From a virus, in IMG/VR virus record IMGVR_UViG_3300009155_000211, positions 1 to 26,996 of that record: DNA of 26,996 nt. The stretch is one strand, 5' to 3'. Position numbers and translations under genes: made by a program. Position 1 is the stretch's first letter. Each line of letters starts with the position of its first letter. The notes under the pieces were generated by a model. The model made no database searches, had not been told where the DNA came from, and was given only the letters and a program-made list of their open reading frames with translations. This document shows positions 5,223 to 19,699 of this stretch, piece by piece.

Positions 5223-5229
5223 TATTTAT
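5223..5229 (+). promoter_or_regulatory. TATTTAT start element for the 5235-5588 gene
   Basis: TATTTAT ends only 5 nt before the ATG, just after the stop of the preceding gene. If it is a promoter box, the mRNA would be essentially leaderless. Confidence 0.45.
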
Positions 5230-5234
5230 CTAAT

Positions 5235-5675: not shown

Positions 5676-8600
5676 ATGGTTCCACAAGAAGAAATTGAGC
5701 GCTTTTTACACGGCGAAGACGACGAGAAATATATTGTCGCATTAGAATACGATTACAAATCAGATAAAATTTTCAAGGTAATACAAGATCCAATCAAAGG
5801 AAAACTTTTGAGAATGGATACATTCATCCCATTTGCTTGGGTTGGTGACCTTAGAACAAAAAACTTTTATAAAGGTAATAAAGACTTTCAAAAAAAGGCG
5901 ATGTCTGAAAACGGCATTATAATAGAAAAATTAGAAGATCGCGGAGACGAAAGATTAAAAAATGGATTGACTTTCTTGGTCAAAACAACAAAATCATATT
6001 CAAACCTTGTGAACTTTTTTAAGGGTGGTGGTCTTGATCCTTGGGGAAGAGATAATTCCGACTGCATAACAATATTATCACCTGTAGAACAATACTTAAT
6101 CCAAAAAAGTAAAAGGTTATTCAAAGGGTTTGATGAATACGACGAAATCCACAGGTTTGTATTTGATATCGAGACCACAGGTTTAGATCCCAAGACAAGT
6201 AAAATGTTCTTGATTGGAATGAAAGACAACCGTGGATTTCTAAAATTATTATCGGCACAAAACGAAGATGAAGAACGACAAATGATTATTGAGTTCTTTA
6301 AAACTATAGACGAATTAAAACCTTCTCTTATTGGTGGGTATAACTCGGCGTTCTTTGACTTTCCGTTTATTTTAAAACGTGCAGAGATTTTAAAGTTAAA
6401 CATTAAAAAAATATCCAAAACTTTAAACCCCGACTACTCACTAAAACAAAAAGACGGTATTCTAAAATTAGCAAATGAGATGGAACCTTACGTTCAAACT
6501 CAAATGTGGGGGTATAATATTGTGGATATTGCTCATGCGGTTCGTAGAGCACAAGCAATTAACTCTGACATTAAGAGTTGGTCTTTAAAGTATATTACTA
6601 AGTTTATTGAGGCAGAAAAAGAAAATCGTGTTTATGTTGAGGGGGATAAAATCGGAAAGATTTATTTTGACAATGAGGACTATTGGATGAATAAAGAAAA
6701 CGGTAACTATAAAAAGATAGGTGTCAACGAAAAGATAGATGAAGTTTGTTCAAGGAGAACTGATGTATATATAAAAACTAACGGTTCAAAAATTATTGAG
6801 GACTACCTTGATGATGACCTTTATGAAACAATGATTGTTGATGAACAATTCAACCAAGCAAACTTCTTACTTTCCAAATTGGTACCAACCACCTATGAAC
6901 GACTCTCAACGATGGGTACTGCAACATTATGGAAAATGATTATGTGTTCGTGGTCTTATAAAAACAATTTAGCACTACCTAAAAAGAAAGAGAAAAGAAA
7001 ATTTACAGGAGGTCTTTCTCGTTTGGTTCAGGTTGGTTACTCAAGGAAGGTATTAAAACTTGACTACTCGTCACTATACCCCTCCATTCAGTTAGTTCAC
7101 GACGTATTTCCATCTTGTGATGTAACAGGAGCAATGAAAAGTATGTTAAAGTACTTTAGAGATACTCGTATAAAATATAAAAACTTAGCAAGTGAATTTA
7201 AAAAAACGGATCCGAAACTTTCAGTCTCATATGACAGGAAACAATTACCAATTAAAATCTTCATCAACGCATTCTTTGGATCTCTCTCAGCACCTCACGT
7301 ATTTCCGTGGGGAGATATTGACATGGGAGAGCAGATTACGTGTACAGGAAGACAGTATTTACGACAGATGATTATGTATTTTATGGGTAGAGGGTATGTT
7401 CCTTTGGTTCTTGACACGGATGGGGTCAACTTTGAGACTCCACAAGATAGAGAAGATTACACTTATGTAGGTAAAGGTCTTAATGGTTTAGTTAAAGCGG
7501 GTGAAACCTACGTAGGCGCTGAGGCTGATGTTGCAGAATACAATGATCTATTTATGAGAAATGAGATGGGTCTTGATATTGATGGTGTATGGCCAGCAAC
7601 CATTAACGTGGCTCGTAAGAACTACGCATTACTCACAGATAAAGGTAAAGTTAAACTTACGGGTAACTCAATTAAATCTAAAAAACTTCAAACATATGTT
7701 GCAGAATTTTTAGATAAAGGGTTAAGAATGTTACTTGATGGTAAGGGTGGTGAGTTTTTGGATTTCTATTATGAGTATGTAAGTAAAATTTACAACAAAG
7801 AAATACCTTTAGCAAAAATGGCAAACAAGGCTCGTGTTAAACAATCAATTGACGATTATAAAGTACATATCACAAAAAAAACAATTTCGGGTAGTTTAAT
7901 GTCAAGACAGGCTCATATGGAACTTTTAATGAATGCTGGTAAAAAACCAGGTTTAGGTGATACCATCTATTACGTTAATAACGGTGTAAAAAAATCACAC
8001 GGTGATGTTCAAAAGGTTAATAAACCAAAAGCTGGATGGAATGATGAACAAGTGGAATTATTTTTCTCGGATTCTACAACAATTAAAGGTTCATACAAGG
8101 AAAAAGAAAAATTCCTACTTGATAATGGTTGGGAAAAATCTTGGTCAGAAGATAACTGGGTACGTAGTAACTCTAAAAATAAAGAAGCTAATACCGGTGT
8201 ACCAACCGATGTCGCGTATAGACTTGCTAGTACAGATTCGGTAATACAACTTAATTGTTATTTAATTGATGAAAAGGAAATAGAAAATAACCCTGACTTA
8301 TTAGGTGATTATAACGTAGCAAGAGCGTTAGCGGCATTTAATAAAAGAATTGAACCCTTACTTGTGGTATATAACCCTGACATTAGAAAAGACATCTTAA
8401 TTGAGAACCCAATATATCAACCAATCTTTACCAAGTCACAAACAGAATTAGGTAGGGGATACCCAATGAAAGAAAAAGACCAAGACAATATAGATGAACT
8501 ACTAACAATTTCAGATATGGAATTATTGTTTTGGAAAAGTGTTGGGATTGATCCTTATTATATGTACATAGATAATACTATTGAACTTGTTGATAAAAAA

Positions 8601-8717
8601 TATATAGATAAAAATAAACAACTAATGACTAAAACACTATTAAAGGTTACGGTAGACGATAATAATACCTACGAATTTGATGAGGATGGTGATTTAATGT
8701 CTTTAATTTATGATTAA
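5676..8717 (+). CDS. DNA polymerase, family B with 3'-5' exonuclease (T4 gp43-like)
   Basis: 1013 residues. Replicative phage polymerase. Exonuclease motifs: Exo I FDIETTG with D164 and E166; Exo II GYNSAFFDFP with N223 and D228; a Y-x3-D candidate for Exo III at ~377-381. Polymerase motifs: A, DYSSLYPS from D463; B, RKQLPIKIFINAFFG ~521-535; C, LDTDG with D580 and D582. A thumb-like KNYALLTDKGKVKLTG segment follows. All catalytic residues expected for both activities are present, so it should be active and proofreading. It is longer than T4 gp43 (898 residues), mostly C-terminally, where no known domain is evident. It ends in a 4-nt convergent overlap with the minus-strand gene 8714-9046. 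No intein or split is seen. Confidence 0.95.
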   Translation: MVPQEEIERFLHGEDDEKYIVALEYDYKSDKIFKVIQDPIKGKLLRMDTFIPFAWVGDLRTKNFYKGNKDFQKKAMSENGIIIEKLEDRGDERLKNGLTFLVKTTKSYSNLVNFFKGGGLDPWGRDNSDCITILSPVEQYLIQKSKRLFKGFDEYDEIHRFVFDIETTGLDPKTSKMFLIGMKDNRGFLKLLSAQNEDEERQMIIEFFKTIDELKPSLIGGYNSAFFDFPFILKRAEILKLNIKKISKTLNPDYSLKQKDGILKLANEMEPYVQTQMWGYNIVDIAHAVRRAQAINSDIKSWSLKYITKFIEAEKENRVYVEGDKIGKIYFDNEDYWMNKENGNYKKIGVNEKIDEVCSRRTDVYIKTNGSKIIEDYLDDDLYETMIVDEQFNQANFLLSKLVPTTYERLSTMGTATLWKMIMCSWSYKNNLALPKKKEKRKFTGGLSRLVQVGYSRKVLKLDYSSLYPSIQLVHDVFPSCDVTGAMKSMLKYFRDTRIKYKNLASEFKKTDPKLSVSYDRKQLPIKIFINAFFGSLSAPHVFPWGDIDMGEQITCTGRQYLRQMIMYFMGRGYVPLVLDTDGVNFETPQDREDYTYVGKGLNGLVKAGETYVGAEADVAEYNDLFMRNEMGLDIDGVWPATINVARKNYALLTDKGKVKLTGNSIKSKKLQTYVAEFLDKGLRMLLDGKGGEFLDFYYEYVSKIYNKEIPLAKMANKARVKQSIDDYKVHITKKTISGSLMSRQAHMELLMNAGKKPGLGDTIYYVNNGVKKSHGDVQKVNKPKAGWNDEQVELFFSDSTTIKGSYKEKEKFLLDNGWEKSWSEDNWVRSNSKNKEANTGVPTDVAYRLASTDSVIQLNCYLIDEKEIENNPDLLGDYNVARALAAFNKRIEPLLVVYNPDIRKDILIENPIYQPIFTKSQTELGRGYPMKEKDQDNIDELLTISDMELLFWKSVGIDPYYMYIDNTIELVDKKYIDKNKQLMTKTLLKVTVDDNNTYEFDEDGDLMSLIYD

Positions 8718-9046
8718 GACCCTTTTAAACCATCGGACGAAAGGATATACCAGTTATTTCCGATATACTTAAATTCAACACAGGAACCTTTAGTTAGTTC
8801 AACCTCACTAAACTCTTCATCTATCAGTGTATCGGATTTTACTAAAGTGTTTGTTAATGATTTTATAACTACGTGATCCGTGTTTGTGTGGTCTAAAGAT
8901 ATGACACAAAGATCAACACCTTTGGTAACAATAACATACTCACCATTAGTAGTATAGTTTTTATTGGTTACAATAGCTGAGTCAGAAGTCTCAATAATGT
9001 TACCATTTATAATTCTTTTGGATGGAATTGATTTAAAAACTGCCAT
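8714..9046 (-). CDS. Small beta-rich protein downstream of the neck gene, probable virion component
   Basis: 110 residues, almost entirely alternating beta-strand pattern (GEYVIVTKGVDLCVISLDH, DHVVIKSLTNTLV, CVEFKYIGNNWYILSSDG). The last strand pair, with an aromatic NNWYILSSDG, resembles ends of small phage fibre or decoration proteins. It starts 6 nt after the stop of the neck-protein gene on the same strand, so it is probably co-transcribed with it and virion-associated. It overlaps the polymerase stop convergently. There are no catalytic motifs or signal peptide. The specific role is unknown. Confidence 0.6.
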   Translation of the reverse strand: MAVFKSIPSKRIINGNIIETSDSAIVTNKNYTTNGEYVIVTKGVDLCVISLDHTNTDHVVIKSLTNTLVKSDTLIDEEFSEVELTKGSCVEFKYIGNNWYILSSDGLKGS

Positions 9047-9052
9047 AAAAAA

Positions 9053-10171
9053 TTATATCACATTGTATGGACTTGTAAATGGTCTGTATTTTAATGATTT
9101 ATTCATATTTTCAGCCATAGCACCTTTAATTTCCCACTGTTTTTCTGGTCTTAACCTTTCAAGTCTTGTTTTAAGTTCTTCCCACAACATAGTTTTTTCA
9201 TCTTTCGCTTCGGATTGTAAGGTCGTATACTCTAATGTAATTTCAGTATCAGGTGTTTTTAAATTACCACTATATTTTCCTCTAACTCTCGCTAAAGTTT
9301 CTTTACAATAAGCGGTAAACCATCTACGAACCCAAGTCTGTGCGGGTGAATTTAACTCATCCCAACGGGTCTCATCAATAGGAACGTCTGACGGCAATCT
9401 TACAATATCGGGGTTTTTCTTTAAACAATCTTCTCTATCGAAAGTATCGTAATACCAATACCATACTCGATATCCTTGATATTTGATATTTCCAAAATCA
9501 AATTTCCCACCAGGAACATTCATTAAATGTAACGCTTTTTTACCTTCAGGTAATGCGGTAACCCTATACGTTAATTCTCCCGTAATAATTCTTCGTTTAA
9601 TATTGATGTCTTGCATCCTTAATAATATATCAAATGCTGGCGTTATAAAATAATTTCCTGTTGTTCCCATTTGAGAAAAACCAGCACCACCACCAAGACC
9701 AATTCCACCAAATCCACCAAACCCACCCATAAACGGGTCAAAATATGCTGCATCCAATTCTGATCTTGAGAACCATAACAATTCGTTAAGTTCCCTACCC
9801 GCAGGAATTTCATAAATTTGTTGATTATGTATTAAGTCTATATAATCTTTCTTTAAAACGTAATCTCCTCCGGCTTGTAACCCTACAATTTTAGAGTATG
9901 AATAAGTGTATTGCGTTTCCCAATCCAAACTTCTTGTTGTAAACGCCCGTGTTACAGATTGTTCATCTAAATTTAAACCGTACAAAGACGACCATTGGCT
10001 TTCAATCAACCAATCATTAACGTGTTGGGAATAATCTTGAATAGATAATTCCAATAAAGAATCCATCATTTCATCCTCTAGTTCAACACCCCTCAACGGA
10101 GCCCCCAAAAGATTTCTAATTCTTTTATAGAGTTTACCTCTATCTGGTTCTTGAATAATTGATGTGGCCAT
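9053..10171 (-). CDS. Neck/virion structural protein, T4 gp13-like
   Basis: 372 residues. The N-terminal segment (RIRNLLGAPLRGVELEDEMM, then LSIQDYSQHVNDWLIES) and the C-terminal helical region (TWVRRWFTAYCKETLARVRG, KYSGNL, then a Glu/Lys-rich helix LQSEAKDEKTMLWEELKTRL) follow the pattern I associate with gp13-type neck proteins of T4-like marine phages, which close the head beneath the portal. Residues ~148-175 hold a Gly/Phe-rich loop (GGFGGFGGIGLGGG) that is probably a flexible insertion. T4 gp13 is 309 residues. A TATTTATA element lies 14 nt before the ATG. The family call is from memory of sequence patterns and needs a profile search. Confidence 0.55.
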   Translation of the reverse strand: MATSIIQEPDRGKLYKRIRNLLGAPLRGVELEDEMMDSLLELSIQDYSQHVNDWLIESQWSSLYGLNLDEQSVTRAFTTRSLDWETQYTYSYSKIVGLQAGGDYVLKKDYIDLIHNQQIYEIPAGRELNELLWFSRSELDAAYFDPFMGGFGGFGGIGLGGGAGFSQMGTTGNYFITPAFDILLRMQDINIKRRIITGELTYRVTALPEGKKALHLMNVPGGKFDFGNIKYQGYRVWYWYYDTFDREDCLKKNPDIVRLPSDVPIDETRWDELNSPAQTWVRRWFTAYCKETLARVRGKYSGNLKTPDTEITLEYTTLQSEAKDEKTMLWEELKTRLERLRPEKQWEIKGAMAENMNKSLKYRPFTSPYNVI

Positions 10172-10185
10172 AAGATATATTTTTA

Positions 10186-10193
10186 TATAAATA
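10186..10193 (-). promoter_or_regulatory. TATTTATA start element for the neck-protein unit
   Basis: The plus strand reads TATAAATA; on the sense strand it is TATTTATA, 14 nt before the ATG. It lies within an inverted repeat whose arms are AAGATAT (10172-10178) and ATATCTT (10191-10197). Confidence 0.5.
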
Positions 10194-10198
10194 TCTTA

Positions 10199-11287
10199 TT
10201 ATTTTGATTTGTTTCTTTCTATTTGGGTTGTGTATAAATCATTTACAAACGACCAATTAACAACCTTCCAAAAGTTTTTAACGTATTTGTCTCTTTGGTT
10301 TTTATATTTTAGGTAATAAGCGTGTTCCCAAACATCTAAACCCAATATGGGGTACCCCAGTATTTTTTCAGTATTCATCAGAGGGTTATCTTGATTTGGT
10401 GTGGTGACTATTTTTAAAGTATTATTTTTTGTTAATATTAACCAAACCCAACCGGAACCAAAACGGGATTTTGCTTCCTCTTCAAATTTCTCTTTAAATT
10501 TATCTATAGAACCAAAAGTTTTTTCTATTTTACTTTTGATTGGGTCTTTTATTTCTTGTTTCGTTGGGGATAACATTTTCCAAAATAATGCGTGATTAAA
10601 TGCCCCACCACCATTATTTTTAACTTTATCATTAAATTTAGATATTTTTTTAATGATTGACTCAATATCCAAATCAGGACCTTTAACCTTTTCTAACTCT
10701 ATATTTAATTTCTCAACATACCCCTTATAATGTTTTGTGTAGTGAGTTTTCATTGTTTCTGAATCTATAAACCCCTCTACAGAGTTATAATCGTAAGGTA
10801 ATTTTTCAACACTTATACTTTTTATTTCTGAAATAATATTTTTATGTGAAATTAAATCTTCATTTAATTTAATCTCCAATTCATTGATCTTATTTTGAAA
10901 TGGTTTGTAAACAGATTTTATTTTCTCTTTGTTTTTTTGTTCAAATTTTTTCATTAACTCACCGGCCTTCGCATTTGCTTCGTCTTCGTTTTTACCCCCG
11001 ATATTCGGGCCTTTTTTTCTTTTTAAAACCGTTCTTTGGTATTCGTGATGCCATTCGTGAGATAAGGTTTTTAATATGTCCCTATTTAATCTGTCTTTAA
11101 CTAATATTTTTAAACGATGAGTGTCGGTTCTACTACCGGTAGTCATTTTTCCTGTTCTCTGATTTAAAAAATCAATTTCCACATCATCTTTAAGTGGTAG
11201 TTCTTTTTTTAAAAACTCAACAAATTTATTAATTAAGTCTTTTTGTTCTTTTGTGGTGTCTCCGTTATATTTAGTATTCACTTCCAT
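10199..11287 (-). CDS. Fusion of HExxH metallopeptidase-like domain and Fe/Mn superoxide dismutase
   Basis: 362 residues. The N-terminal ~120 residues contain LSHEWHHEYQ, an HExxH zinc-binding motif (H77, E78, H81), followed by NEDEANAKAGEL with E101/E103 as candidate third ligands, as in zincin metallopeptidases. A Lys/Glu-rich helical linker runs ~115-160. Residues ~165-355 are an Fe/Mn superoxide dismutase: H182 in THYTKHYKGYV (H186 and Y190 at the spacing of H30 and Y34 of E. coli FeSOD), H232 in FNHALFW, the GSGWVWL strand, and D318/H322 in GLDVWEHAYY. All four metal ligands are present, so dismutation of superoxide is plausible. There is no signal peptide, so it should be cytosolic or virion-borne. 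A TATTTATA box sits 4 nt upstream of the ATG. Confidence 0.85.
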   Translation of the reverse strand: MEVNTKYNGDTTKEQKDLINKFVEFLKKELPLKDDVEIDFLNQRTGKMTTGSRTDTHRLKILVKDRLNRDILKTLSHEWHHEYQRTVLKRKKGPNIGGKNEDEANAKAGELMKKFEQKNKEKIKSVYKPFQNKINELEIKLNEDLISHKNIISEIKSISVEKLPYDYNSVEGFIDSETMKTHYTKHYKGYVEKLNIELEKVKGPDLDIESIIKKISKFNDKVKNNGGGAFNHALFWKMLSPTKQEIKDPIKSKIEKTFGSIDKFKEKFEEEAKSRFGSGWVWLILTKNNTLKIVTTPNQDNPLMNTEKILGYPILGLDVWEHAYYLKYKNQRDKYVKNFWKVVNWSFVNDLYTTQIERNKSK

Positions 11288-11291
11288 TGTT

Positions 11292-11299
11292 TATAAATA
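11292..11299 (-). promoter_or_regulatory. TATTTATA start element for the peptidase-SOD gene
   Basis: Sense-strand TATTTATA is packed between the helicase stop codon (11300-11302) and the SOD-fusion ATG, with only 4 nt between box and ATG. Confidence 0.5.
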
Positions 11300-14164
11300 T
11301 CACCTACCATTAGAAATTATTTTTAACATTTCTTCTATTGAAGATGCGTCGTCCAATAACAGGTCATCTCCCATAACTGTGGATATAATTTTTTTCTTTC
11401 TATTTAAGATGTTGTAGATCGCACCCTCTATAGTATTTTCAAAAAGGGGATAGTAAACTGATGTTGAATTTTTTTGACCTATTCTATGTGATCGGTCTTC
11501 TGCCTGTGCGTGTTCTGCCGGCACAAACGACAAATCATTCATAATAACCGCTTCAGCCGATGTTAAAGTAATACCAACACCCGCAGCCTTTAAGTTTCCA
11601 ACAAACACTTTAATTTTATCATTCTCTTGAAAATCATCCACAGATTTTTGTCGATGAGGTTTTGAACAAGACCCATCTAAATAAACCGCACTTTTTCCAA
11701 AATGGTTATAAATAGCACGTAATGTATCTGTAAAGTTTGTAAATATGATAACTTTTTTTCCTTGCTCAATAATGTTCTCAGCCAACTCAATAGTATTTTT
11801 AACTTTTTCTTCGGCAATAACTTTTCTAACCTTCATCAATTTACCAAATTGGATGGTCAATGATCCGGATTCATCAGGGTTTTTGTCGTACCAATCATAG
11901 TATTCACCCATAAGTTCTTCATAGTCTTTAGACTTTAATCTTAAATAAACGGGTGTAATAATTTTATCGGGTAAATCTAAAACGTCTTCTTTTAGTCTCC
12001 TAAGAATGTGTGATTGTGTTCGTTCCCTTAACTCATCTAAGTTTGATGCTCCAGTAACGTTCCAAATTTTTCTTTTACCAACACTAAATTGAAATCCGTT
12101 GCAGTATCTTTTTGCATAAGCCATCCAATTTGATGCAACAGGACTCTCAACTAAACTCAAAAGATTAAAATAGTTCATCGGTCTTGAGGTCATTGGTGTT
12201 CCCGTCAATAACCAAACCCTATCAATTTTATCACATAGATCATTAACAATTTTTGTTCTTTGTGCTTGGGGGTTACTTACAACATGGCAATTACTAACTA
12301 AAATACCATTTGCGAAATAATTGTGATTATCCACAATTTCTAAATCATACACATTTGTATTTTTTCTACACATCCCATTATGTTGTTGTCTATTTCCTCG
12401 TTCCAAAACCTCAACACTTTCCACCCTAATGAAGTCAATATTTCTGTTTTCCTTTTGTCTATAAATTTCCATTTTTTCAGTTTGTGACTTTTCCCATCTA
12501 TTTCTATAATCAACATCAGTTTTGAATTGGCAATATCTACGTTGTAGTGATTTGGTAAACTTTTTTGATTTCCAATATAACCCTTTGTTAAAATAGTATA
12601 CTCCATTTCCCAACCCTGACCTAAAGATTCGTATAATTTTTTTTGTTGTTTCGTTAATTTCCCGTTCCCCCCTCTTGATAAAAAAGTTTTTCCCTTTAAA
12701 GATTTTTTCATTTTTTCCAATGACTCCAAATTGAACATTGGGTTGTTTTTTTTCATCCTTTCCGATGATTTCAGTCTTATATTTGGATTGTTCCTGTGCA
12801 CTTCTTTCATTTTTTCTGACATATTGTGTTTTTTCATAGAATTTTTCCACTTCTGTCTTGTTTCTACACTCTTCCATTTCATTTTGCTTGCGCAACTTAT
12901 TGAACAACAAATTTGTTTTTTCATTTGTGATTGTGTTTGAAATTTCATTATTTCTCCACAATTTAAACATTCTTTTTGATGTTTTAATTCTATTTCTTTT
13001 TTTTGTGGTGGATTTTTTTTGTATCTGTATGTTGTGCTGCAAGATTTTGAACAAGTTTGAGTTTTTTTCGTTATTTGTTTTTTTGTTAATAATTTTTGAC
13101 AGTTCAAACACGTAGTCGTTTGATTTGATTTTATCTGATCTAACATAACCTTTATCTTTTACATATATTTTATGGTTTGGTGTGCACTCTATAAATACTC
13201 CGTTGCGTAATTTAATTTGAAGTATAGTGTCTGTTTTTTTAGATAATTTTCTAAATATTTTTTTGTATTCGGTTTTTTTTGTTTCATGATTATAAGACAA
13301 AACGTCCACATCTAAATTTTTTTCAACAATATCACCAATTTTGATTTCACCCTTATTTGTTGTTATTTTAGTGTCGTAAGAAAAACATTCGTCAGCAATT
13401 AAAAGATCAAAATTGGCTTTTAAAATATCAGAATTTTCTTTATTTTTTATGTCATGGAAGTTTTTTAAAATATCATAATTAACAATCACATAATCGTGAT
13501 TAGTTTCTATTTTTTTACCTTCAGCAATATAAACACTACGGTTACTATATATGTTAATCTCTCTTTGCCAATTTATTTTTAATGATGCGGGACAAATTAC
13601 TAAAATCTTTTTTGCTCCTGATTCTAATGAAGCTATTACTGATGAACCTGTTTTTGCCAAACCCATATCGTCCGCCAAAATAAACTTTTTATTACCTACT
13701 AACTTTTGAATCGCCTCTTTTTGGTGATTCATTGGTGGTCTTGAGTCGTATTTTGTATAATCGACAACAATATTTTTAACTTCATTGTCTTTAATGATAG
13801 CAGTTTTTGGTATCCAAAAATCGTGAACAGTTTCACCACTAAATATCTTACCCCATATATGGTATGATTTATCTTTCTCAACCAAAAGTTTCTCAACATA
13901 AATCTCTGTTGGTTCTTTGGTATACATTTTTTCTTCCATCATTTTTTTACCAAAATACGAATCGAGTTTGACCCATTTTTTTGCAACCTTTGGTGTACGA
14001 CCGTGAAAATTTATAATGTACTCCGCTTGAGACCTGGTAGGTGTAAACGATTTACTATTTTGTTTTTTGTGTTTTAAATTTAAGATGTAGTTATTTGATC
14101 CTTCATATTCGTCAAGTAATTGAAGTGACCGTGTTTCGGGCGTTCTTGAAATTAATTCTTCCAT
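11300..14164 (-). CDS. SNF2-family DNA helicase/ATPase interrupted by an intein
   Basis: 954 residues from the ATG at 14164; the mature extein would be ~588. Motif I is ILADDMGLAKTGSS (~162-174), with Ala170 where Walker A usually has the second Gly. Motif II, DECH, is split: D258-E259 precede the intein and C626-H627 follow it. Motif III is WLLTGTPM. The second RecA-like domain has the QAEDRSHRIGQ motif typical of SNF2/SMARCAL1-type proteins. A role in fork remodelling or recombination, like T4 UvsW, is inferred. An upstream in-frame extension to 14374 would run through the divergent promoter region and gene at 14223. The start at 14164 has a TATTTATA 5 nt upstream and is preferred. Activity requires splicing, because the intein sits in the ATPase active site. 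Confidence 0.88.
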   Translation of the reverse strand: MEELISRTPETRSLQLLDEYEGSNNYILNLKHKKQNSKSFTPTRSQAEYIINFHGRTPKVAKKWVKLDSYFGKKMMEEKMYTKEPTEIYVEKLLVEKDKSYHIWGKIFSGETVHDFWIPKTAIIKDNEVKNIVVDYTKYDSRPPMNHQKEAIQKLVGNKKFILADDMGLAKTGSSVIASLESGAKKILVICPASLKINWQREINIYSNRSVYIAEGKKIETNHDYVIVNYDILKNFHDIKNKENSDILKANFDLLIADECFSYDTKITTNKGEIKIGDIVEKNLDVDVLSYNHETKKTEYKKIFRKLSKKTDTILQIKLRNGVFIECTPNHKIYVKDKGYVRSDKIKSNDYVFELSKIINKKTNNEKNSNLFKILQHNIQIQKKSTTKKRNRIKTSKRMFKLWRNNEISNTITNEKTNLLFNKLRKQNEMEECRNKTEVEKFYEKTQYVRKNERSAQEQSKYKTEIIGKDEKKQPNVQFGVIGKNEKIFKGKNFFIKRGEREINETTKKIIRIFRSGLGNGVYYFNKGLYWKSKKFTKSLQRRYCQFKTDVDYRNRWEKSQTEKMEIYRQKENRNIDFIRVESVEVLERGNRQQHNGMCRKNTNVYDLEIVDNHNYFANGILVSNCHVVSNPQAQRTKIVNDLCDKIDRVWLLTGTPMTSRPMNYFNLLSLVESPVASNWMAYAKRYCNGFQFSVGKRKIWNVTGASNLDELRERTQSHILRRLKEDVLDLPDKIITPVYLRLKSKDYEELMGEYYDWYDKNPDESGSLTIQFGKLMKVRKVIAEEKVKNTIELAENIIEQGKKVIIFTNFTDTLRAIYNHFGKSAVYLDGSCSKPHRQKSVDDFQENDKIKVFVGNLKAAGVGITLTSAEAVIMNDLSFVPAEHAQAEDRSHRIGQKNSTSVYYPLFENTIEGAIYNILNRKKKIISTVMGDDLLLDDASSIEEMLKIISNGR
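12290..13387 (-). mobile_element. Intein in the DEAD/DECH motif of the SNF2 helicase
   Basis: 366 codons, from Cys260 to Asn625 of the helicase precursor. Block A is CFSYDTKITT; block B is FIECTPNHKI, with the TxxH motif; the N-terminal half ends near RSDKIKSNDYVF. The C-terminal half includes FIRVESVEVLERG, block F (VYDLEIVDNHNYFANG) and block G (ILVSN followed by extein Cys). The nucleophiles Cys1, terminal Asn and Cys+1 are present. The penultimate residue is Ser instead of the usual His, a variation tolerated by some inteins. The frame stays open across the whole element, so this should be a cis-splicing intein. The central ~220 residues are a Lys/Asn/Arg/Glu-rich stretch with no domain character, produced by reading the nested endonuclease gene in another frame. 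Confidence 0.85.
12340..13146 (-). CDS. Vsr-like (EDxHD) homing endonuclease nested out of frame inside the intein
   Basis: 268 residues, in a different frame from the intein. Two Cys4 zinc-finger-like clusters come first: C13/C16/C32/C36 and C60/C63/C80 or C81/C85. A basic helical region with a NUMOD3-like motif (NNPMFNLESLEKMKKSLKGK, 134-153) follows. The C-terminal nuclease has VDIAN (D204), LIIEIDGKSH (E215, D217, H221), FIDKRK (D230) and GWKVLRFW, the arrangement of Vsr/DUF559-type PD-(D/E)XK enzymes and of the EDxHD homing endonucleases reported with fractured intein genes. It would cut intein-free helicase alleles to spread the intein. The start at 13146 lacks a strong ribosome site, and a downstream start is possible. 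Whether it is expressed alone or by frameshifting from the intein is unknown. Confidence 0.82.
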   Translation of the reverse strand: MLDQIKSNQTTTCLNCQKLLTKKQITKKTQTCSKSCSTTYRYKKNPPQKKEIELKHQKECLNCGEIMKFQTQSQMKKQICCSISCASKMKWKSVETRQKWKNSMKKHNMSEKMKEVHRNNPNIRLKSSERMKKNNPMFNLESLEKMKKSLKGKTFLSRGGNGKLTKQQKKLYESLGQGWEMEYTILTKGYIGNQKSLPNHYNVDIANSKLMLIIEIDGKSHKLKKWKFIDKRKTEILTSLGWKVLRFWNEEIDNNIMGCVEKIQMCMI

Positions 14165-14169
14165 AATAA

Positions 14170-14177
14170 TATAAATA
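14170..14177 (-). promoter_or_regulatory. TATTTATA start element for the SNF2 helicase
   Basis: Sense strand reads TATTTATA, then TTATT, then ATG (5-nt gap). It faces away from the plus-strand copy at 14212-14219 in a 58-bp divergent region. It supports the start at 14164. Confidence 0.5.
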
Positions 14178-14211
14178 AAAATAGTAAACAATAATAAATA
14201 ATCAATCAATG

Positions 14212-14219
14212 TATTTATA
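14212..14219 (+). promoter_or_regulatory. TATTTATA start element for the 14223-15970 unit
   Basis: TATTTATA is followed by only GAT before the ATG at 14223, the shortest gap in the window (3 nt). Confidence 0.5.
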
Positions 14220-14222
14220 GAT

Positions 14223-14738
14223 ATGGCACAGAATAAGGTCCCGATTACAAGGTTAAACAAGTTTTTTTCTGAAGAAGATTTCAATTTAGAAATTGAGATG
14301 GGCATGGAATGGCAGTTAGGTGATATGAATTTTACTGTCGTATTATACAGAGTGGACAGACAAAAGACCAACACTGATGACGTATATGGAGAAGCGTTAA
14401 GTAGTGGTATACAGTTTTTAACACCGATAGAAATAAAAGGTTTGGTTAAAATTGATGCTCCAACAAACTCAGATCTTGGTTCTTCTAAATTATCACAGAT
14501 TGAGCCGGGGAATATGACCTTTAGTGTTTATCAAACATACTTAGATCAATTGGTGATTGATATTTCTTCAGGAGATTATTTGGCTTATTATGAAACCGAA
14601 GATAGGGTTAGATATTATACCGTAGTTAACGACGGTAGGGTTACTTCAGATAATAAACACGCTTACGGTGGATATAAAAAATATTATAGAACAATAATTG
14701 CGTCGCCAGTAACAAACGATGAATTTAACGGATTATAA
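14223..14738 (+). CDS. Probable neck/head-closure protein (T4 gp14-like pattern)
   Basis: 171 residues. Beta-rich with FTVVLYRVDRQKTNTDDVYG near residues 37-56, a segment LTPIEIKGLVKIDA, then GDYLAYYETEDRVRYYTVVN and a final KKYYRTIIASPVTNDEF. A Tyr-Gly-Glu after an Asp/Thr-rich loop, and strands carrying a GD-turn, recall gp14-type neck or head-closure proteins. The gene is followed after 2 nt by a gp15-like gene, matching the T4 order gp13-gp14-gp15 if the strand switch is ignored. It is probably a virion protein at the head-tail joint. Function is assigned from order and a weak pattern, not from a clear family signature. Confidence 0.55.
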   Translation: MAQNKVPITRLNKFFSEEDFNLEIEMGMEWQLGDMNFTVVLYRVDRQKTNTDDVYGEALSSGIQFLTPIEIKGLVKIDAPTNSDLGSSKLSQIEPGNMTFSVYQTYLDQLVIDISSGDYLAYYETEDRVRYYTVVNDGRVTSDNKHAYGGYKKYYRTIIASPVTNDEFNGL

Positions 14739-14740
14739 AA

Positions 14741-15970
14741 ATGGCATTACCAAAAAAGATTAAAAAACATTTACCCCTTATTCCTCAAAAGGTTGGGGTT
14801 GAAAGAAGACAAGAAATGTTGGACGACATCACTAATGATGGGACGTACCTACCTAAAGGTGTGTTGCACGCTGATATGGATAGAGGTATATTAGATTTTG
14901 TTAAAAATGATATTAAATTGGTTGTTGATGGAAAATTGGTTCCCACTGTGGATAAAATCATAACAACGCAGGGGTGGTCACAATTTACGGAGACTTGGGA
15001 TTTTCAAGACTTAGATAAAAACGTATCACTACCTTTTATTATTACCGTTAGACAACCCGAAGTTAAATACGGAAAATTTCAAGGAGGTGCGGCAAACATA
15101 CCCGAAAGATTACGATTTTTTTATTATACGGTTCCTACGTGGGATGGTCAAAGAAAAGGTGCGGATGTATATACAATACCACAACCTGTTCCTGTAGATA
15201 TTACCTATACTATTAAAATCTTTTGTAATAGGATGAGAGAGGTAAATGAGTTTAATAAAATTATGATGCAAAAATTCACATCAAAACAAGCTTACACACA
15301 AATTAAAGGACATTATATGCCGATTACATTAGAGGATCCAACGGACGAATCGGTAAAGGACATTGAAAAAAGAAAGTATTATATACAAAGTTATAAGATA
15401 ACATTAAAGGGACTATTAATTGACGAGGAAGAATTTCAAGTGTCACCAGCAATTAGTAGACAGATAACATTATTTGAATTTGAAACAAAAAAGTCAAATC
15501 GTAGGGTAAAAATAGAACCTCCAAGACCTGACAGTTTTGATTTAGATTTATTATTTGTATCAGGTGTTACCCAACTTAATGAGGTTTTCAGATATACGGC
15601 AGATGTAACGATTAACGAAACCACTAATTTAATTAATTGTTATCAAGCAACTTATTCATCAATAACAAATAATACTTTAACTTATATTAATTGTAGTGGT
15701 ACGACAACCACAATATCAACAAACATTGGTGGTTCGGGTAATATATGTGTTAAATCCTCAACTTTACCATCTTTTAGTAATGCGACTGGTGGAACATTTA
15801 GTCAAGGGGTATCTTGCGCGTCAAGTTATTCGGTTTTTATTAATAATAATTATTTAGGCGATAATGTTCCAAAAATACAAATTACCGATGGGGATACTTT
15901 AAAAATTATCGTTTATAAAGATAATATAACACAGAATGCGGTTATAAAAACTAAGGCGGTTTTGGTTTAA
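14741..15970 (+). CDS. Tail completion/sheath-terminator protein (T4 gp15-like) with C-terminal beta-sandwich extension
   Basis: 409 residues. Residues ~60-260 (VDKIITTQGWSQFTETWDFQ, LPFIITVRQPEVKYG, IPERLRFFYYTVPTWDG, PVPVDITYTIKIFCNRMREV, KYYIQSYKITLKGLLIDEEE) follow the gp15 layout, in which a Pro-Ile/Val-Asp-x-x-Tyr strand precedes a long helix. gp15 hexamers cap the tail tube and bind the neck. The last ~135 residues are an extra domain with paired Cys strands (INCYQ, TYINCSGT, GNICVKS, SCASSYSVF) and Thr/Ser/Asn-rich loops, which would explain the length over T4 gp15 (272). Such small sandwiches are often virion decorations. Translational coupling to the upstream gene is likely (2-nt gap). 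The stop abuts the convergent gene at 15971. Confidence 0.6.
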   Translation: MALPKKIKKHLPLIPQKVGVERRQEMLDDITNDGTYLPKGVLHADMDRGILDFVKNDIKLVVDGKLVPTVDKIITTQGWSQFTETWDFQDLDKNVSLPFIITVRQPEVKYGKFQGGAANIPERLRFFYYTVPTWDGQRKGADVYTIPQPVPVDITYTIKIFCNRMREVNEFNKIMMQKFTSKQAYTQIKGHYMPITLEDPTDESVKDIEKRKYYIQSYKITLKGLLIDEEEFQVSPAISRQITLFEFETKKSNRRVKIEPPRPDSFDLDLLFVSGVTQLNEVFRYTADVTINETTNLINCYQATYSSITNNTLTYINCSGTTTTISTNIGGSGNICVKSSTLPSFSNATGGTFSQGVSCASSYSVFINNNYLGDNVPKIQITDGDTLKIIVYKDNITQNAVIKTKAVLV

Positions 15971-16120
15971 TTATTCACCGTAGATATCTTTTTCTTTAAC
16001 ACACGTCTTTTTTATAAGATTTTCCAAAAACTTATAAAGTTTTAAACCATTTTCCTCACAGTATGTTTTTAATATATTATGAGATTCTTCTGAAATCTTT
16101 ATATTTTTAATTTTTTTCAT
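15971..16120 (-). CDS. 49-residue ribbon-helix-helix-like DNA-binding protein
   Basis: Small ORF starting MKKIKNIKISEESHNILKTY and ending KEKDIYGE. The basic first strand (KIKNIKIS), helix SEESHNILKTYCEENG, turn, and second helix LKLYKFLENLIKKT fit the Arc/MetJ-type ribbon-helix-helix fold, which binds DNA as dimers at inverted repeats. The frame is open from ATG to a TAA immediately next to the tail-completion stop (no gap), and a TATTTAT element lies 4 nt before the ATG, so it is very likely a real gene. It is divergent from the tail sheath gene, with a long inverted repeat between them. An autoregulator or late-gene regulator is inferred. Confidence 0.72.
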   Translation of the reverse strand: MKKIKNIKISEESHNILKTYCEENGLKLYKFLENLIKKTCVKEKDIYGE

Positions 16121-16124
16121 ATTA

Positions 16125-16131
16125 ATAAATA
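16125..16131 (-). promoter_or_regulatory. TATTTAT start element for the ribbon-helix-helix gene
   Basis: The plus strand reads ATAAATA; the sense strand reads TATTTAT, TAAT, ATG (4-nt gap). Confidence 0.5.
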
Positions 16132-16135
16132 TTTT

Positions 16136-16177
16136 TATAGGTAGAAAAAAGGTAGAATTTTTTCATACTTACCTATA
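16136..16177. promoter_or_regulatory. Long inverted repeat between the RHH and tail sheath genes
   Basis: Outer arms TATAGGTA (16136-16143) and TACCTATA (16170-16177) are perfect inverted copies. Inner arms GAAAAAA (16144-16150) and TTTTTTC (16158-16164) also pair, around the loop GGTAGAA. A 5-nt asymmetric stretch (ATACT) separates inner and outer arms on the right. It lies between two divergent starts, so it is not a terminator for either gene. It may be an operator for the adjacent small DNA-binding protein, or an RNA structure in a sheath leader initiated upstream. Confidence 0.45.
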
Positions 16178-16182
16178 TTTAT
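16176..16182 (+). promoter_or_regulatory. Second, upstream TATTTAT copy before the tail sheath gene
   Basis: TATTTAT, 75 nt before the sheath ATG and overlapping the right arm of the inverted repeat by two bases. It may be an additional start or fortuitous. Confidence 0.25.
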
Positions 16183-16217
16183 TATTTTTTTGGTCAGTTT
16201 TTTGCTGTTTTTAAATG

Positions 16218-16225
16218 TATTTATA
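16218..16225 (+). promoter_or_regulatory. TATTTATA start element for the tail sheath gene
   Basis: TATTTATA followed by a 32-nt leader of A and T with almost no G or C, then ATG. The leader is longer than at most units and is shared in style with the tail tube gene (30 nt). Confidence 0.5.
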
Positions 16226-16257
16226 TAAAAAAATAAATCTTTAATTAAATAGAAAAA

Positions 16258-19200
16258 ATGGCATCTACTACTAAAGTATTCGTTTCTCCGGGGGTATACA
16301 CCTCAGAAAGGGACTTAACTTTTGTTGCACAAAGTGTTGGTGTAACTACTTTAGGTTTAGCTGGTGAGACCCTACAAGGTCCCGCTTTTGAACCTATTTT
16401 CATTACAAATTTTGATGAGTTCCAAGTATATTTTGGAGGAACAAGTCCTGAAAAATTTGTAAACACACAAATCCCTAAATATGAAACTGCATATATTGCT
16501 AAATCATACTTACAACAATCAAATCAATTATTCGTTACAAGAATACTTGGGTTATCAGGTTATGATGCTGGACCGTCTTGGTCTGTTGTGACTATGGGTA
16601 ATTTAAATTCAAGTACACTTGCAATTACTGGTACTACACCATCGTCAGTTTCATTTGTATTCTTTACGGGAACAACAGGATCAAGTGCTAACATTACAAT
16701 CACTTCACCGTCAGCGTCATTATCTGCGGATTTTTACAGTACGTATACAACGGCAAATGGTGGTACATCTACATTAAAGTCTGATTTTCAATCTTATATT
16801 TCGTCAGAGGTTAATCGTTATTCTACGGCATCCGCATTAACAGGTAGAACCGCATATTTTTGGGGGTCTGTAAATACACCTACTTACAGTGCGGTTACAG
16901 GAGCCTCAATTACTGCTGGTGGTGCAACCGCATACACAGAAACATTTGGAGTTGATAATGTAATATTTGCAAACAATACGCTATCTTCATACGAAAATGA
17001 TCCTTGGTATTATTCATTGTTTGATTACAAGAAATCAGGACTTAACAGTTACTATAACGGTTATGGTTTTGGTTCAGTACTAAAAACAATTTCAAGTATA
17101 GGTGGTGGTGTTTATTCTGGATCTATGGCGGTTTATCTTACAAATTATTCAGGAGCAACTTATTCTGAATATGATAATATGGTCGTATCAACATTAAGAT
17201 CAAGAGGTATTACATCGTACTCAAGTTCTCAACACGGACCTAATTTTCAAGTTAGTGCAACAACAGGGGTTAATATTATTACAACAGGAACGTATTCTGG
17301 AGTATCTACTAATCCGTTTGAAACATTTGTTATTTCAGGTATTACAACTGATGGAGATACATTTAGTTTTGAAACGTCATTAGCATCTACAGACTCTCAA
17401 TATATTTCTAAAGTATTTGGAAGATCTAACTTTGGTAAAGACAGAAATGAAGTTCCTTTATTTGTTGAGGAGACATACTCTAGTCTATTAACTACAGGTT
17501 ATAATGGTGGAAAAATCAGAGGTATTTACGGAACGTTGATTGACCTTCCTGGTGTTACAGACGATTCAAATATTCAAGATTACCGTGATTCAATCGCATT
17601 TTACTTAGAACAATATCAAACACCTGAAACACCATATATGGTTTCAGAATTAAGAGGTAATAAAGTTTTTAAATTATTCAAATTTAAATTAATCTCCGAT
17701 GGTAACGCAGCAAATAGACTTGTTAAAATGTCCATTGGAAATATTTCATTTGCTAACGGTACTTTTGATGTATTCATTAGAGATTTCTATGATAACGATC
17801 AAAATGTAAGGGTTGTTGAAAGTTTCACTAATTGTTCTATGGATCCAAATCAAACTAACTATGTGGCTAACAAAATAGGTACATCTAACGGTGAATATGA
17901 AGTTAAATCTAAATATGTAATGTTAGATATGAGTTCAGAAGCACCATCAGACGCATTACCTTGTGGGTTTGAAGGTTACATCTCAAGAGAGTACGCACAA
18001 TCAACACCACCATTTGTAGTATATAAAACAAAATATTTACAAGCGGGTGAAGTTATTTATAACCCACCGTTCGGATCTTCGTCAGGTGGAGATAATCCAG
18101 TAATATCAAATGGTGAAAACCCAAGAAAGGCGTATTTAGGGATATCAAATATTACCGGTATTGATTACGATTTTTACGAATATAAAGGAAAACAAATACC
18201 AGCTAACTTAGCTACTGATACTGTTGGTACTCCTTGGGCTTACACAACAAAAGGTTTCCATATGGATAGTGGGGCAACGGTCGTAACCAAACTTAACGTA
18301 TTAACATCCGCTACAACGGCAGCATTTGAGGTTGGTACAGGATCATTTAGTTCTGAACCTACCGATATCGATAACCCATACTACAGATTAAATACTCGTA
18401 AATTTACAGTATTAGCATATGGTGGTTTTGACGGTTGGGACATTTATCGTGAAAGTAGAACTAATGGAGATACGTTCGCATTAGGTCAATCAGGATTTAA
18501 ATTCGGAGCAGCATCATCAGTATCTTACCCGACAGCATCAGGATGGGGAGCGTTTAAACAAATTTCAGGACCAAACCAAGAGACTTGGGCAAATACTGAC
18601 TATTACGCATACAAATGGGGACAATCAACATTCGCAAATCCTGAATCGGTTAACATCAATATATTTACAACACCGGGTATTGATTATGTAAATAACTCTA
18701 ACTTAGTTGAGGATGCTATTGATATGATCGAATCAGATAGAGCAGATTCAATATATATTTGTACGACACCAGACTTTAACCTATTCTTACCATCTTACAC
18801 TGATATTGAGGAGGGGCTTATTTACCCCCAAGAGGTTGTGGATAATTTAGAGAATACAGGTATTGATTCTAACTATACCGCCACTTACTACCCTTGGGTA
18901 TTAACAAGAGATAGTGTAAACAATACACAAATTTATATTCCAGCAACTGCAGAGGTAACTAAAAACTTGGCGTTAACTGATAATATCGCATTTCCTTGGT
19001 TCGCATCTGCGGGTTACACAAGAGGTCTTGTAAATGCTATTAGAGCACGTAAAAAATTAACACAAGAAGATAGAGACACACTTTATAAAGGTAGAATTAA
19101 TCCAATTGCGACTTTCTCTGATGTTGGTACTGTAATTTGGGGTAATAAAACATTACAAGTTAGAGAGTCAGCACTTGACAGAATCAACGTAAGACGTTTA

Positions 19201-19488
19201 TTACTACAAGCTCGTAAGTTGATTTCAGCGGTAGCGGTTAGGTTATTGTTTGAACAAAACGACGATAAAGTAAGACAACAATTCTTAGATTCAGTTAACC
19301 CAATCTTAGATTCAATAAGAAGAGATCGTGGTTTAATTGATTTCCGTGTGACGGTATCAAACACTCCTGAAGATTTAGATTCAAACACTTTAACAGGTAA
19401 GATTTTCTTAAAACCTACAAGAGCGTTAGAGTATATCGATATCGAGTTTGTTATTACACCTACTGGAGCATCTTTCGATGATGTATAA
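16258..19488 (+). CDS. Tail sheath protein (T4 gp18-like)
   Basis: 1076 residues. The N-terminal signature VSPGVYTSERDLTF and TTLGLAGETLQGPAFEPIFI, with the following YFGG, is diagnostic for contractile sheath subunits. The C-terminal core (LLLQARKLISAVAVRLLFEQ, RRDRGLIDFRVTVSNTPEDL, RALEYIDIEFVITPTG) matches the conserved sheath C-terminal domain, which links neighbouring subunits and surrounds the tube. T4 gp18 has 659 residues. The extra ~400 lie mainly between ~100 and ~390 and are Ser/Thr/Gly/Tyr-rich, probably outward-facing domains. Subunits polymerise around the tail tube and contract on infection. A hairpin terminator follows 15 nt after the stop. Confidence 0.93.
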   Translation: MASTTKVFVSPGVYTSERDLTFVAQSVGVTTLGLAGETLQGPAFEPIFITNFDEFQVYFGGTSPEKFVNTQIPKYETAYIAKSYLQQSNQLFVTRILGLSGYDAGPSWSVVTMGNLNSSTLAITGTTPSSVSFVFFTGTTGSSANITITSPSASLSADFYSTYTTANGGTSTLKSDFQSYISSEVNRYSTASALTGRTAYFWGSVNTPTYSAVTGASITAGGATAYTETFGVDNVIFANNTLSSYENDPWYYSLFDYKKSGLNSYYNGYGFGSVLKTISSIGGGVYSGSMAVYLTNYSGATYSEYDNMVVSTLRSRGITSYSSSQHGPNFQVSATTGVNIITTGTYSGVSTNPFETFVISGITTDGDTFSFETSLASTDSQYISKVFGRSNFGKDRNEVPLFVEETYSSLLTTGYNGGKIRGIYGTLIDLPGVTDDSNIQDYRDSIAFYLEQYQTPETPYMVSELRGNKVFKLFKFKLISDGNAANRLVKMSIGNISFANGTFDVFIRDFYDNDQNVRVVESFTNCSMDPNQTNYVANKIGTSNGEYEVKSKYVMLDMSSEAPSDALPCGFEGYISREYAQSTPPFVVYKTKYLQAGEVIYNPPFGSSSGGDNPVISNGENPRKAYLGISNITGIDYDFYEYKGKQIPANLATDTVGTPWAYTTKGFHMDSGATVVTKLNVLTSATTAAFEVGTGSFSSEPTDIDNPYYRLNTRKFTVLAYGGFDGWDIYRESRTNGDTFALGQSGFKFGAASSVSYPTASGWGAFKQISGPNQETWANTDYYAYKWGQSTFANPESVNINIFTTPGIDYVNNSNLVEDAIDMIESDRADSIYICTTPDFNLFLPSYTDIEEGLIYPQEVVDNLENTGIDSNYTATYYPWVLTRDSVNNTQIYIPATAEVTKNLALTDNIAFPWFASAGYTRGLVNAIRARKKLTQEDRDTLYKGRINPIATFSDVGTVIWGNKTLQVRESALDRINVRRLLLQARKLISAVAVRLLFEQNDDKVRQQFLDSVNPILDSIRRDRGLIDFRVTVSNTPEDLDSNTLTGKIFLKPTRALEYIDIEFVITPTGASFDDV

Positions 19489-19503
19489 ATAAAAAATAAA
19501 ATT

Positions 19504-19529
19504 AATGGGGAGTAGAAATATTCCCCATT
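19504..19529 (+). terminator. Hairpin after the tail sheath gene
   Basis: AATGGGGA (19504-19511) pairs with TCCCCATT (19522-19529), giving 8 bp around a 10-nt loop, followed by ATATATTT. The short, imperfect T tract makes it a moderate intrinsic terminator. It overlaps nothing and precedes the next TATTTATA element. Confidence 0.55.
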
Positions 19530-19533
19530 TATA

Positions 19534-19541
19534 TATTTATA
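19534..19541 (+). promoter_or_regulatory. TATTTATA start element for the small ORF/HAD unit
   Basis: TATTTATA with an 11-nt leader to the ATG at 19553. It lies just after the sheath terminator hairpin, so this unit appears independently transcribed. Confidence 0.5.
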
Positions 19542-19552
19542 AAATAAAGACA

Positions 19553-19699
19553 ATGAAAATAGAAAAAAAAATTATTAGGGAATCGGTTGGTAACGACCTT
19601 AAAGGGTATAAAACATATTCTAACAAAAAACAAAACATTGTTATAACTGAAAGTCAATTAGAGAAAATTTTAGAAAAACTACAAAATAATGGACATTAA
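19553..19699 (+). CDS. 48-residue hypothetical protein
   Basis: MKIEKKIIRES through NIVITESQLEKILEKLQNN. The start at 19553 is chosen over the in-frame ATG at 19505 because the latter would translate through the terminator hairpin and the TATTTATA element. The C-terminal segment is an amphipathic helix with a TES-x-L-x-x-I pattern that I associate with short segments in marine phage proteins. The N-terminus is basic with an IRE-S site. It overlaps the HAD gene start by 11 nt, so it may couple that gene's translation. No function is recognised. Confidence 0.55.
   Translation: MKIEKKIIRESVGNDLKGYKTYSNKKQNIVITESQLEKILEKLQNNGH

Follow-up and report, generated by a model that had tools for sequence, protein, structure and literature searches.

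Full-length inteins carry an in-frame endonuclease domain (LAGLIDADG and others), and the "fractured genes" that Dassa and colleagues are said to have described in 2009 contain split inteins with a free-standing EDxHD nuclease gene between the halves. The subject of this study is an element in a 26,996-nucleotide (nt) stretch of viral DNA (positions 1 to 26,996 of IMG/VR record IMGVR_UViG_3300009155_000211; hereinafter, the window), which is very probably a contiguous intein at motif II of a helicase (DE/CH, the slash marking the insertion point) overprinted in the +1 frame by a separately translated homing endonuclease gene (Table 1). Like a full-length intein, it is contiguous, has a nuclease encoded between its splicing halves, and would target the empty site, but its nuclease lies in another frame and would be a separate protein. 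Like the split inteins of fractured genes, it has halves that flank an EDxHD nuclease gene; however, in those inteins the frame is broken and splicing occurs in trans, whereas the frame in the window is continuous.

Among printed cases, the closest is the ShiLan insertion (Arsenault, Gosselin, and Gogarten 2025; PMC11855218), an out-of-frame HNH homing endonuclease gene within a phage methylase gene that stays open in the host frame. The two cases share an out-of-frame homing endonuclease in a host-open insertion, a disjunct distribution, and a proposed inner translation; the ShiLan insertion is described there as lacking an intein splicing domain and as thought to remain in the host protein, whereas in the window the nuclease gene lies within an intein recognized by intein profiles and encodes an enzyme of the EDxHD/DUF559 type rather than HNH. 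No description of a nuclease overprinted in an intein appeared among the open-licence PMC titles listed, in passages of PMC12613952, PMC3229294, PMC6892783, PMC9403480, and PMC12350094, or in a term search of PMC7765530. Hence, we regard the window element as an intein combined with the principle of a hidden nuclease.

The helicase-intein frame (14164-11300, minus strand; 954 codons) translates without inner stops, and profile searches detected SNF2 and Helicase_C domains in its product. The splicing regions exceed the cut-offs of the NCBIfam profiles TIGR01445 (N-terminal region; E = 1.9e-13; 51.2 bits versus 24.5) and TIGR01443 (C-terminal region; E = 1e-6; 28.8 bits versus 15.6), with the Pfam profile Intein_splicing reaching 28.9 bits, under its cut-off of 35.8. 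The insertion point is the helicase motif II site, between ...LLIADE and CHVVSN..., where empty-site relatives read DE/AHMISNPQ and the C-extein of the window begins /CHVVSNPQ. The intein has the residues of a contiguous splicing element, i.e., a nucleophile at position 1 (C1), TxxH (TPNH in block B), a final Asn, and Cys at +1 (C1...SN/C), and with no stop between its halves it differs from a split intein. Its nearest solved relative by sequence is NrdJ-1 (Protein Data Bank [PDB] code 8ubs; E = 1.4e-9), and Foldseek matches its AlphaFold model to the solved inteins 1mi8 (E = 2.5e-7) and 8ubs (E = 3.3e-7), predicting a HINT fold that is confident for the splicing part only. The predicted local distance difference test score (pLDDT) is ~75 to 92 for residues 1 to 98 and ~80 to 90 for residues 317 to 329 and 345 to 366. 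In the C half, strands are modeled at 317 to 329 and 345 to 364, and residues 332 to 341 score <50; residues 99 to 314 are predicted to be disordered, with pLDDT <50 nearly throughout.

The overprinted open reading frame (ORF; 268 amino acids [aa]) is +1 relative to the helicase/intein frame and matches DUF559 (PF04480) with 60 bits against a cut-off of 20.6. Residues E215, D217, H221, and D230, corresponding to the E, D, H, and D of EDxHD nucleases with a DUF559/Vsr-like fold, are invariant in 38 alignment rows, as are C60, C63, and C81 of the second zinc-finger-like cluster (C85 nearly so). Foldseek matches the nuclease model (pLDDT 84.4) best, though weakly (E = 4.5e-3), to I-Bth0305I (3r3p), an EDxHD homing endonuclease whose PDB entry calls it a mobile intron protein and gives no intein context; 3r3p and 1vsr (E = 2.7e-2) are both within the top four matches, and the nuclease profile matches I-Bth0305I with E = 0.019. 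At both ends, the two reading frames carry recognizable motifs on the same DNA: the intein KIKSNDYVF and the nuclease start in the 5' overlap and the nuclease tail GWKVLRFWNEEI... and the intein SVEVLERG...VYDLEI in the 3' overlap.

These searches confirm the observation in an earlier note on this DNA, which had claimed an open helicase-intein frame, a separate nuclease in another frame of the same strand, and family motifs in both frames at the two overlaps; intein and DUF559 profiles recognize the respective translations. The note called the nuclease "Vsr-like"; the Vsr profile itself scores 17.5 bits, far under the cut-off of 97.85. The two Cys clusters and the EDxHD residues that it listed are present; for its NUMOD3-like motif (SERMKKNNPM), the searches with the window nuclease gave no profile match, so that the name "NUMOD3-like" is provisional.

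The architecture recurs well beyond the window. A tblastn search of 50,697 phage records with the nuclease recovered 40 (37 from Vibrio phages, 2 from Corynebacterium phages, and 1 from a Pseudomonas phage). The sole annotated feature under each match is a helicase, P-loop NTPase, coil-containing, or hypothetical protein; in all seven records opened, it is one long helicase-frame coding sequence with intein ends and the nuclease at +1. Public annotation seems to miss such overprinted nuclease genes. When contigs from IMG/VR and GTDB were scanned with the nuclease and with four alignments of nucleases, the set grew to 407 records, including the window. Both intein halves flank the nuclease in 340 of these, and in every one of the 340 the halves share one frame and the nuclease is at +1, so that it is not an in-frame endonuclease domain; the intein frame has no stop in 328 records, 15 to 27 stops in 9, and a single stop in 3 (one contig). 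The other 67 comprise 58 records that lack intein halves, 8 that have the C half alone, and 1 without a scored nuclease. Because the same contig was often fetched repeatedly, clusters are a better unit than records. The cluster test, which kept 378 of the 407 records (leaving out nuclease scores under 60 bits), gave 211 clusters at 80% aa identity, of which 173 are open, 4 are split, 1 has a single stop, 4 show only a C half, and 29 lack an intein. A smaller earlier sample of 172 records agrees in direction, both halves being present in 111 of them and the frame being open in 107. The 21 genome records assigned to a named phylum represent 11 phyla, although some may be phage contigs that were binned with genomes. 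Thus, the combination of a contiguous intein and a nuclease in dual frames is widespread.

Among 178 cluster representatives, C1 and the final Asn are universal (both ends being set by the profile), the +1 residue is Cys in 166 and Ser in 12, the penultimate residue is His in 155 and Ser in 21, a pattern search finds TxxH in 151, and 155 of the inteins directly follow "DE." Judged by flanking residues, their hosts are superfamily 2 (SF2) helicases, clamp-loader-like ATPases (e.g., DE/CHKLTNDAQNALLK), and others. One further locus, L079, has an overprinted intein in a different ATPase-like gene, in which CWVEEAQ follows the intein; it is terminase-like by eye only.

In the +1 relation, a stop arises in the intein frame only where a nuclease codon NNT precedes AAN, AGN, or GAN, and since NNT and NNC are always synonymous, a silent change in the nuclease is enough to remove any such stop. 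In the alternative same-strand frame, a Met codon followed by one for Ile, Met, Thr, Asn, or Lys creates an unavoidable TGA, and at least one unavoidable stop is found in the +2 frame of 96 of 100 family proteins; the constant +1 relation could also reflect common descent alone, the two causes being inseparable here. Across the 268 nuclease codons of the window, the intein frame has 0 stops, against 15.9 expected from synonymous-codon shuffling (standard deviation 2.5; minimum 6 in 30,000 runs) and 25.7 when codons are drawn at the frequencies seen in eight other genes of the window (minimum 12 in 20,000). T-ending nuclease codons stand at none of 106 positions ahead of a codon starting with AA, AG, or GA, versus 52 of 161 elsewhere. 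In the 171 open clusters used (2 of the 173 had fewer than 80 codons or ambiguous letters), 29,138 codons contain no intein-frame stop, against 1,294 expected from synonymous shuffling; 166 are individually significant (p < 0.05), with locus GC content ranging from 0.256 to 0.699. As controls, the four split-intein clusters carry 93 stops (103 expected) and six free-standing relatives carry 125 (128 expected). Because stops are wholly absent from the open forms while unconstrained relatives carry the expected number, we conclude that the intein frame is held open by selection. This is a clean case of selected overlapping coding, with its controls built in as unconstrained relatives of the same nuclease.

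The two frames evolve differently. In 23 overlapping pairs, which are not independent because loci are shared between them, the ratio of nonsynonymous to synonymous divergence (dN/dS) is ~0.07 to 0.39 for the nuclease and, uncorrected for the overlap, ~0.6 to 2.5 for the intein-frame linker. Between the window and L402, the nuclease has a dN of 0.047 and a dS of 0.365 (ratio 0.13), the linker 0.091 and 0.079 (~1.15), and the intein N half 0.041 and 0.239, with an extein dS of 1.587. Against L220, with few changes, the ratios are 0.39 for the nuclease and ~0.6 for the linker; that of the intein N half is ~0.17 in both pairs. Thus, the nuclease evolves as a protein, and the overlapped intein stretch, which is predicted to be disordered, does not.

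These results also bear on the remaining claims of the earlier note, which had called for such frame-specific rates. It had pointed to ~222 intein codons free of stops where a uniform rate of 3/64 predicts about ten; the lack of stops stands, and the rate understates the expectation. Its proposal that a second frame, kept open, links the two halves across the nuclease gene agrees with the deficit of 1,294 stops, but its notion of a passing intermediate is not supported, the architecture being widespread with 173 open clusters. It had regarded a stop in the intein frame of homologs as evidence against the continuous frame; apart from the one contig with a TAG and the nine records with 15 to 27 stops, none was seen among the 340 records with both halves.

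The element has recently been transferred horizontally. Compared with L220 (same contig as L003), dS is 0.033 in the nuclease and 0.077 in the intein N half but 1.03 in the exteins, and identity is 97 to 99% over most of the intein and ~76 to 89% in the helicase flanks >80 bp away. Of the best 80 among at least 599 loci related to the C-extein, classed by pattern, 79 have an uninterrupted DE/AH-type site and the other is the near copy of the window, a proportion that is not a frequency because intein-bearing relatives such as L003 and L004 are absent from those 80. We then counted informative sites, namely, those at which L003 (donor-like) and L408 (recipient-like) differ. The 300 bp upstream of the insertion are of the donor type (donor, 77; recipient, 9; neither, 5), the interval from 300 to 450 bp is mixed (13, 15, and 7, respectively), and that from 450 to 700 bp is of the recipient type (donor, 2; recipient, 35). 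Downstream, the first 50 bp have 9 donor and 5 recipient sites, and the region beyond has 13 versus 75. The ~300-bp tract looks like co-conversion, as expected if the element was copied together with a short flank.

With respect to nuclease translation, an in-frame ATG precedes the start of the profile match or lies within ten codons of it in 170 of 173 representatives. The median Shine-Dalgarno energy at the first ATG is -5.4 kcal/mol, versus -2.9 kcal/mol at 1,097 internal ATGs (p = 3e-13); only this figure is used because a "best start" picks among candidates and is thus biased. In the Vibrio and Pseudomonas phages of the set, the GAGG of the intein DEV codons lies directly 5' of the nuclease start. 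Window genes generally lack a Shine-Dalgarno sequence (median, +0.4 kcal/mol over 18 genes). The motif TATTTAT[AC] is enriched in the window (21 copies versus 9.8 expected), and 12 of the 21 sites are located ≤60 bp upstream of a same-strand gene start. The copy TATTTATA falls within the intein at 43 nt upstream of the nuclease ATG, and 11 of 14 related loci have one 38 to 116 nt upstream of the nuclease start. This motif may be a promoter, although the intein codons alone might keep the copy; a promoter consensus scan of the region was uninformative, giving 13 sites against 11.8 expected. Copies also occur at 2584-2591, 5223-5230, 11292-11299, and 14170-14177.

The anatomy established here, its conservation, the avoidance of stops, and the recent transfer are compatible with a cycle in which ribosomes starting at the helicase would read the whole intein, its middle being an unstructured filler peptide removed along with the remainder of the intein on splicing, and those starting at the inner ATG would make the nuclease as a separate protein rather than as an intein domain. 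The nuclease would then cut helicase genes with an empty site, and repair would copy the element across. Selection maintains the double reading, acting on the nuclease frame for its protein sequence and on the intein middle mainly for the lack of stops. In this scheme, we infer precursor splicing, the use of the inner start, and cutting of the empty site from sequence features. Such an element would preserve both host function, through splicing, and mobility, through the nuclease, as two proteins from one stretch.

Other explanations fare less well to differing degrees. We give practically no credence to the idea that the open frame arose by chance, or through an assembly error, in a gene poor in T or rich in AT; although few stops are expected in some GC-rich clusters, the shuffles and the same-family controls with about their expected stops reject this origin. 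It is very unlikely that the window holds a decaying relic in which intein splicing has been lost or the nuclease is dead. Replacement of the penultimate His by Ser would suit such decay, and L094 (Polaromonas) is a decayed remnant, but the low dN/dS of the nuclease and the intein N half, the retained catalytic-type residues, and the recent transfer argue otherwise. Hardly more credible, and if anything less so, is production of the nuclease by +1 ribosomal frameshifting as a fusion to the intein N half: the constant +1 relation would allow it and a shift could be regulated, but in the window the nuclease frame closes four codons before its ATG (a 272-codon open frame; a slippery site was not sought), and many relatives have a Shine-Dalgarno sequence before the ATG.

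Several observations nevertheless weigh against a functional contiguous intein with a separately translated, selected nuclease. The window intein ends in SN/C rather than HN/C, its model is of low overall quality (pLDDT 56.7; predicted template modeling score 0.42), and TxxH was not found in 27 of the 178 representatives. Foldseek gave no match of the nuclease model at E of 0.001 or better, and the window nuclease lacks a Shine-Dalgarno sequence (-0.9 kcal/mol). The linker ratios are uncorrected for the overlap, and the low linker dS is due in part to nuclease constraint. Five GC-rich clusters of the 171 are individually nonsignificant, and deficits occur among unconstrained sequences: 51 DUF559 matches without an intein have 145 stops versus 175 expected (a mild deficit), and the free-standing L102 has 17 versus 24.3 (a clear one; P = 0.002), perhaps because its gene was once overprinted. 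In L040 (also L250 and L340), the intein of a clamp-loader-like gene is overprinted as in the others except that its linker contains one TAG; this codon is probably not recoded, because TAG also ends other long open frames there, and is perhaps a beginning split. Finally, the hidden Markov models were made from the nuclease/intein family itself, and each contig scan comprised the best 80 loci, with two scans giving their matches as "at least," so that the counts are no census.

The family also includes split and free-standing forms. L046, L062, L090, and L174 resemble the fractured-gene inteins and occupy a neighboring helicase site (DE[AS]HS/C or DEHHR/C) with the same nuclease at +1. Recoding was rejected for L046, L062, and L090 (15 to 27 stops), the three covered by a stop-type check, because all three stop codons occur in them; they are split forms and do not use another code. 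The nucleases of L085, L102, L196, and L284 are free-standing, each immediately preceding an SF2 helicase gene that has no intein. In L196 (3548-5078), the SF2 helicase frame breaks at a DE/HH site beside the nuclease, perhaps through faulty repair of a cut or because different sequences were mixed in assembly. L076 (3300-3944) is a free-standing family nuclease with no intein and no SF2 helicase adjoining it among the open frames listed, and in L094 (3438-4162) the intein remnant around the nuclease has 2 shadow stops versus 6.5 expected.

The history could also have run from split to contiguous: the nuclease gene might first have parted the halves of a split intein, with selection later purging stops to rejoin them. 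We regard this origin of the window element as unlikely, though it deserves real weight. Split relatives with the same nuclease, +1 at both ends and with 15 to 27 stops, do exist, but the route requires the removal of many stops, and the split forms amount to 4 clusters in one clade (SH-aLRT support 100) against 173 open clusters, with seeds that were mostly open forms. A first quick tree (103 rows chosen at ~52% identity) placed the split clade among open forms with supports of 80 to 89, but its outgroup was faulty (L228, which equals L076, mislabeled). In a second tree (66 rows, with every second open row, chosen ones, and eight DUF559 outgroup rows; L147, L089, and L079 left out), the split forms again make up one clade, and a topology that separates all open and free-standing forms from the split ones plus the outgroup outscored the free quick search by 29.3 log units (approximately unbiased test, p-AU = 0.776). 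A split-first history is thus not rejected, and the contiguous-before-split direction read from the first tree is not established. The origin of natural split inteins has become testable now that a single family supplies contiguous, split, and free-standing forms.

Returning to the contiguous intein with an overprinted nuclease, we tentatively propose, at somewhat less than an even chance, that it exemplifies a third way to build a mobile intein beside in-frame endonuclease domains and split genes. This would be an old, widespread dual-frame class in the motif II/Walker B sites of phage helicases, clamp-loader-like ATPases, and similar ATPases, with the nuclease at +1 and its start signals in intein codons; loss of the second frame would yield split inteins, and escape of the nuclease would yield free-standing genes beside empty sites.

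Table 1. Positions in the window of the helicase, intein, and nuclease features
Feature	Position	Strand	Basis
N-extein of SNF2-type helicase, to motif II (...LLIADE/)	13388..14164	-	translation, profiles
Contiguous intein, 366 aa, C1...SN, +1 Cys	12290..13387	-	TIGR01445/TIGR01443, 8ubs, AlphaFold model
Intein N-terminal splicing half, blocks A and B, TPNH, residues 1-98	13094..13387	-	profile, pLDDT
Intein-frame linker, residues 99-314, +1 shadow of nuclease, open	12446..13093	-	pLDDT, dN/dS, 0 stops
Intein C-terminal splicing half, with the SVEVLERG strand and blocks F and G	12290..12445	-	TIGR01443
C-extein of helicase (/CHVVSNPQ...), including stop codon	11300..12289	-	translation, profiles
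Nested EDxHD/DUF559-type homing endonuclease gene, 268 aa, +1	12340..13146	-	PF04480, AlphaFold/Foldseek
Zinc-finger-like cluster 1: C13, C16, C32, C36	13039..13110	-	sequence; no profile match
Zinc-finger-like cluster 2: C60, C63, C81, C85	12892..12969	-	alignment
SERMKKNNPM motif, residues 128-137, conserved in family	12736..12765	-	alignment
Catalytic-type core E215, D217, H221, D230	12457..12504	-	alignment, 38 rows
5' overlap: nuclease start and end of intein N half	13094..13146	-	translations
3' overlap: nuclease tail and intein C half	12340..12445	-	translations
Donor-like tract upstream of insertion, apparent co-conversion	13388..13687	.	informative sites
TATTTATA, gene-start-associated motif, 43 nt before nuclease ATG, inside intein	13190..13197	-	motif counts

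A tRNA search of the window found none, and positions 8000 to 20000 have no close DNA match in the phage collection. Beyond the helicase, the window encodes members of the tail sheath (16258-19488), tail tube (20674-21162), baseplate hub (21257-22009), and DNA polymerase (5676-8717) families, which points to a contractile-tailed phage.

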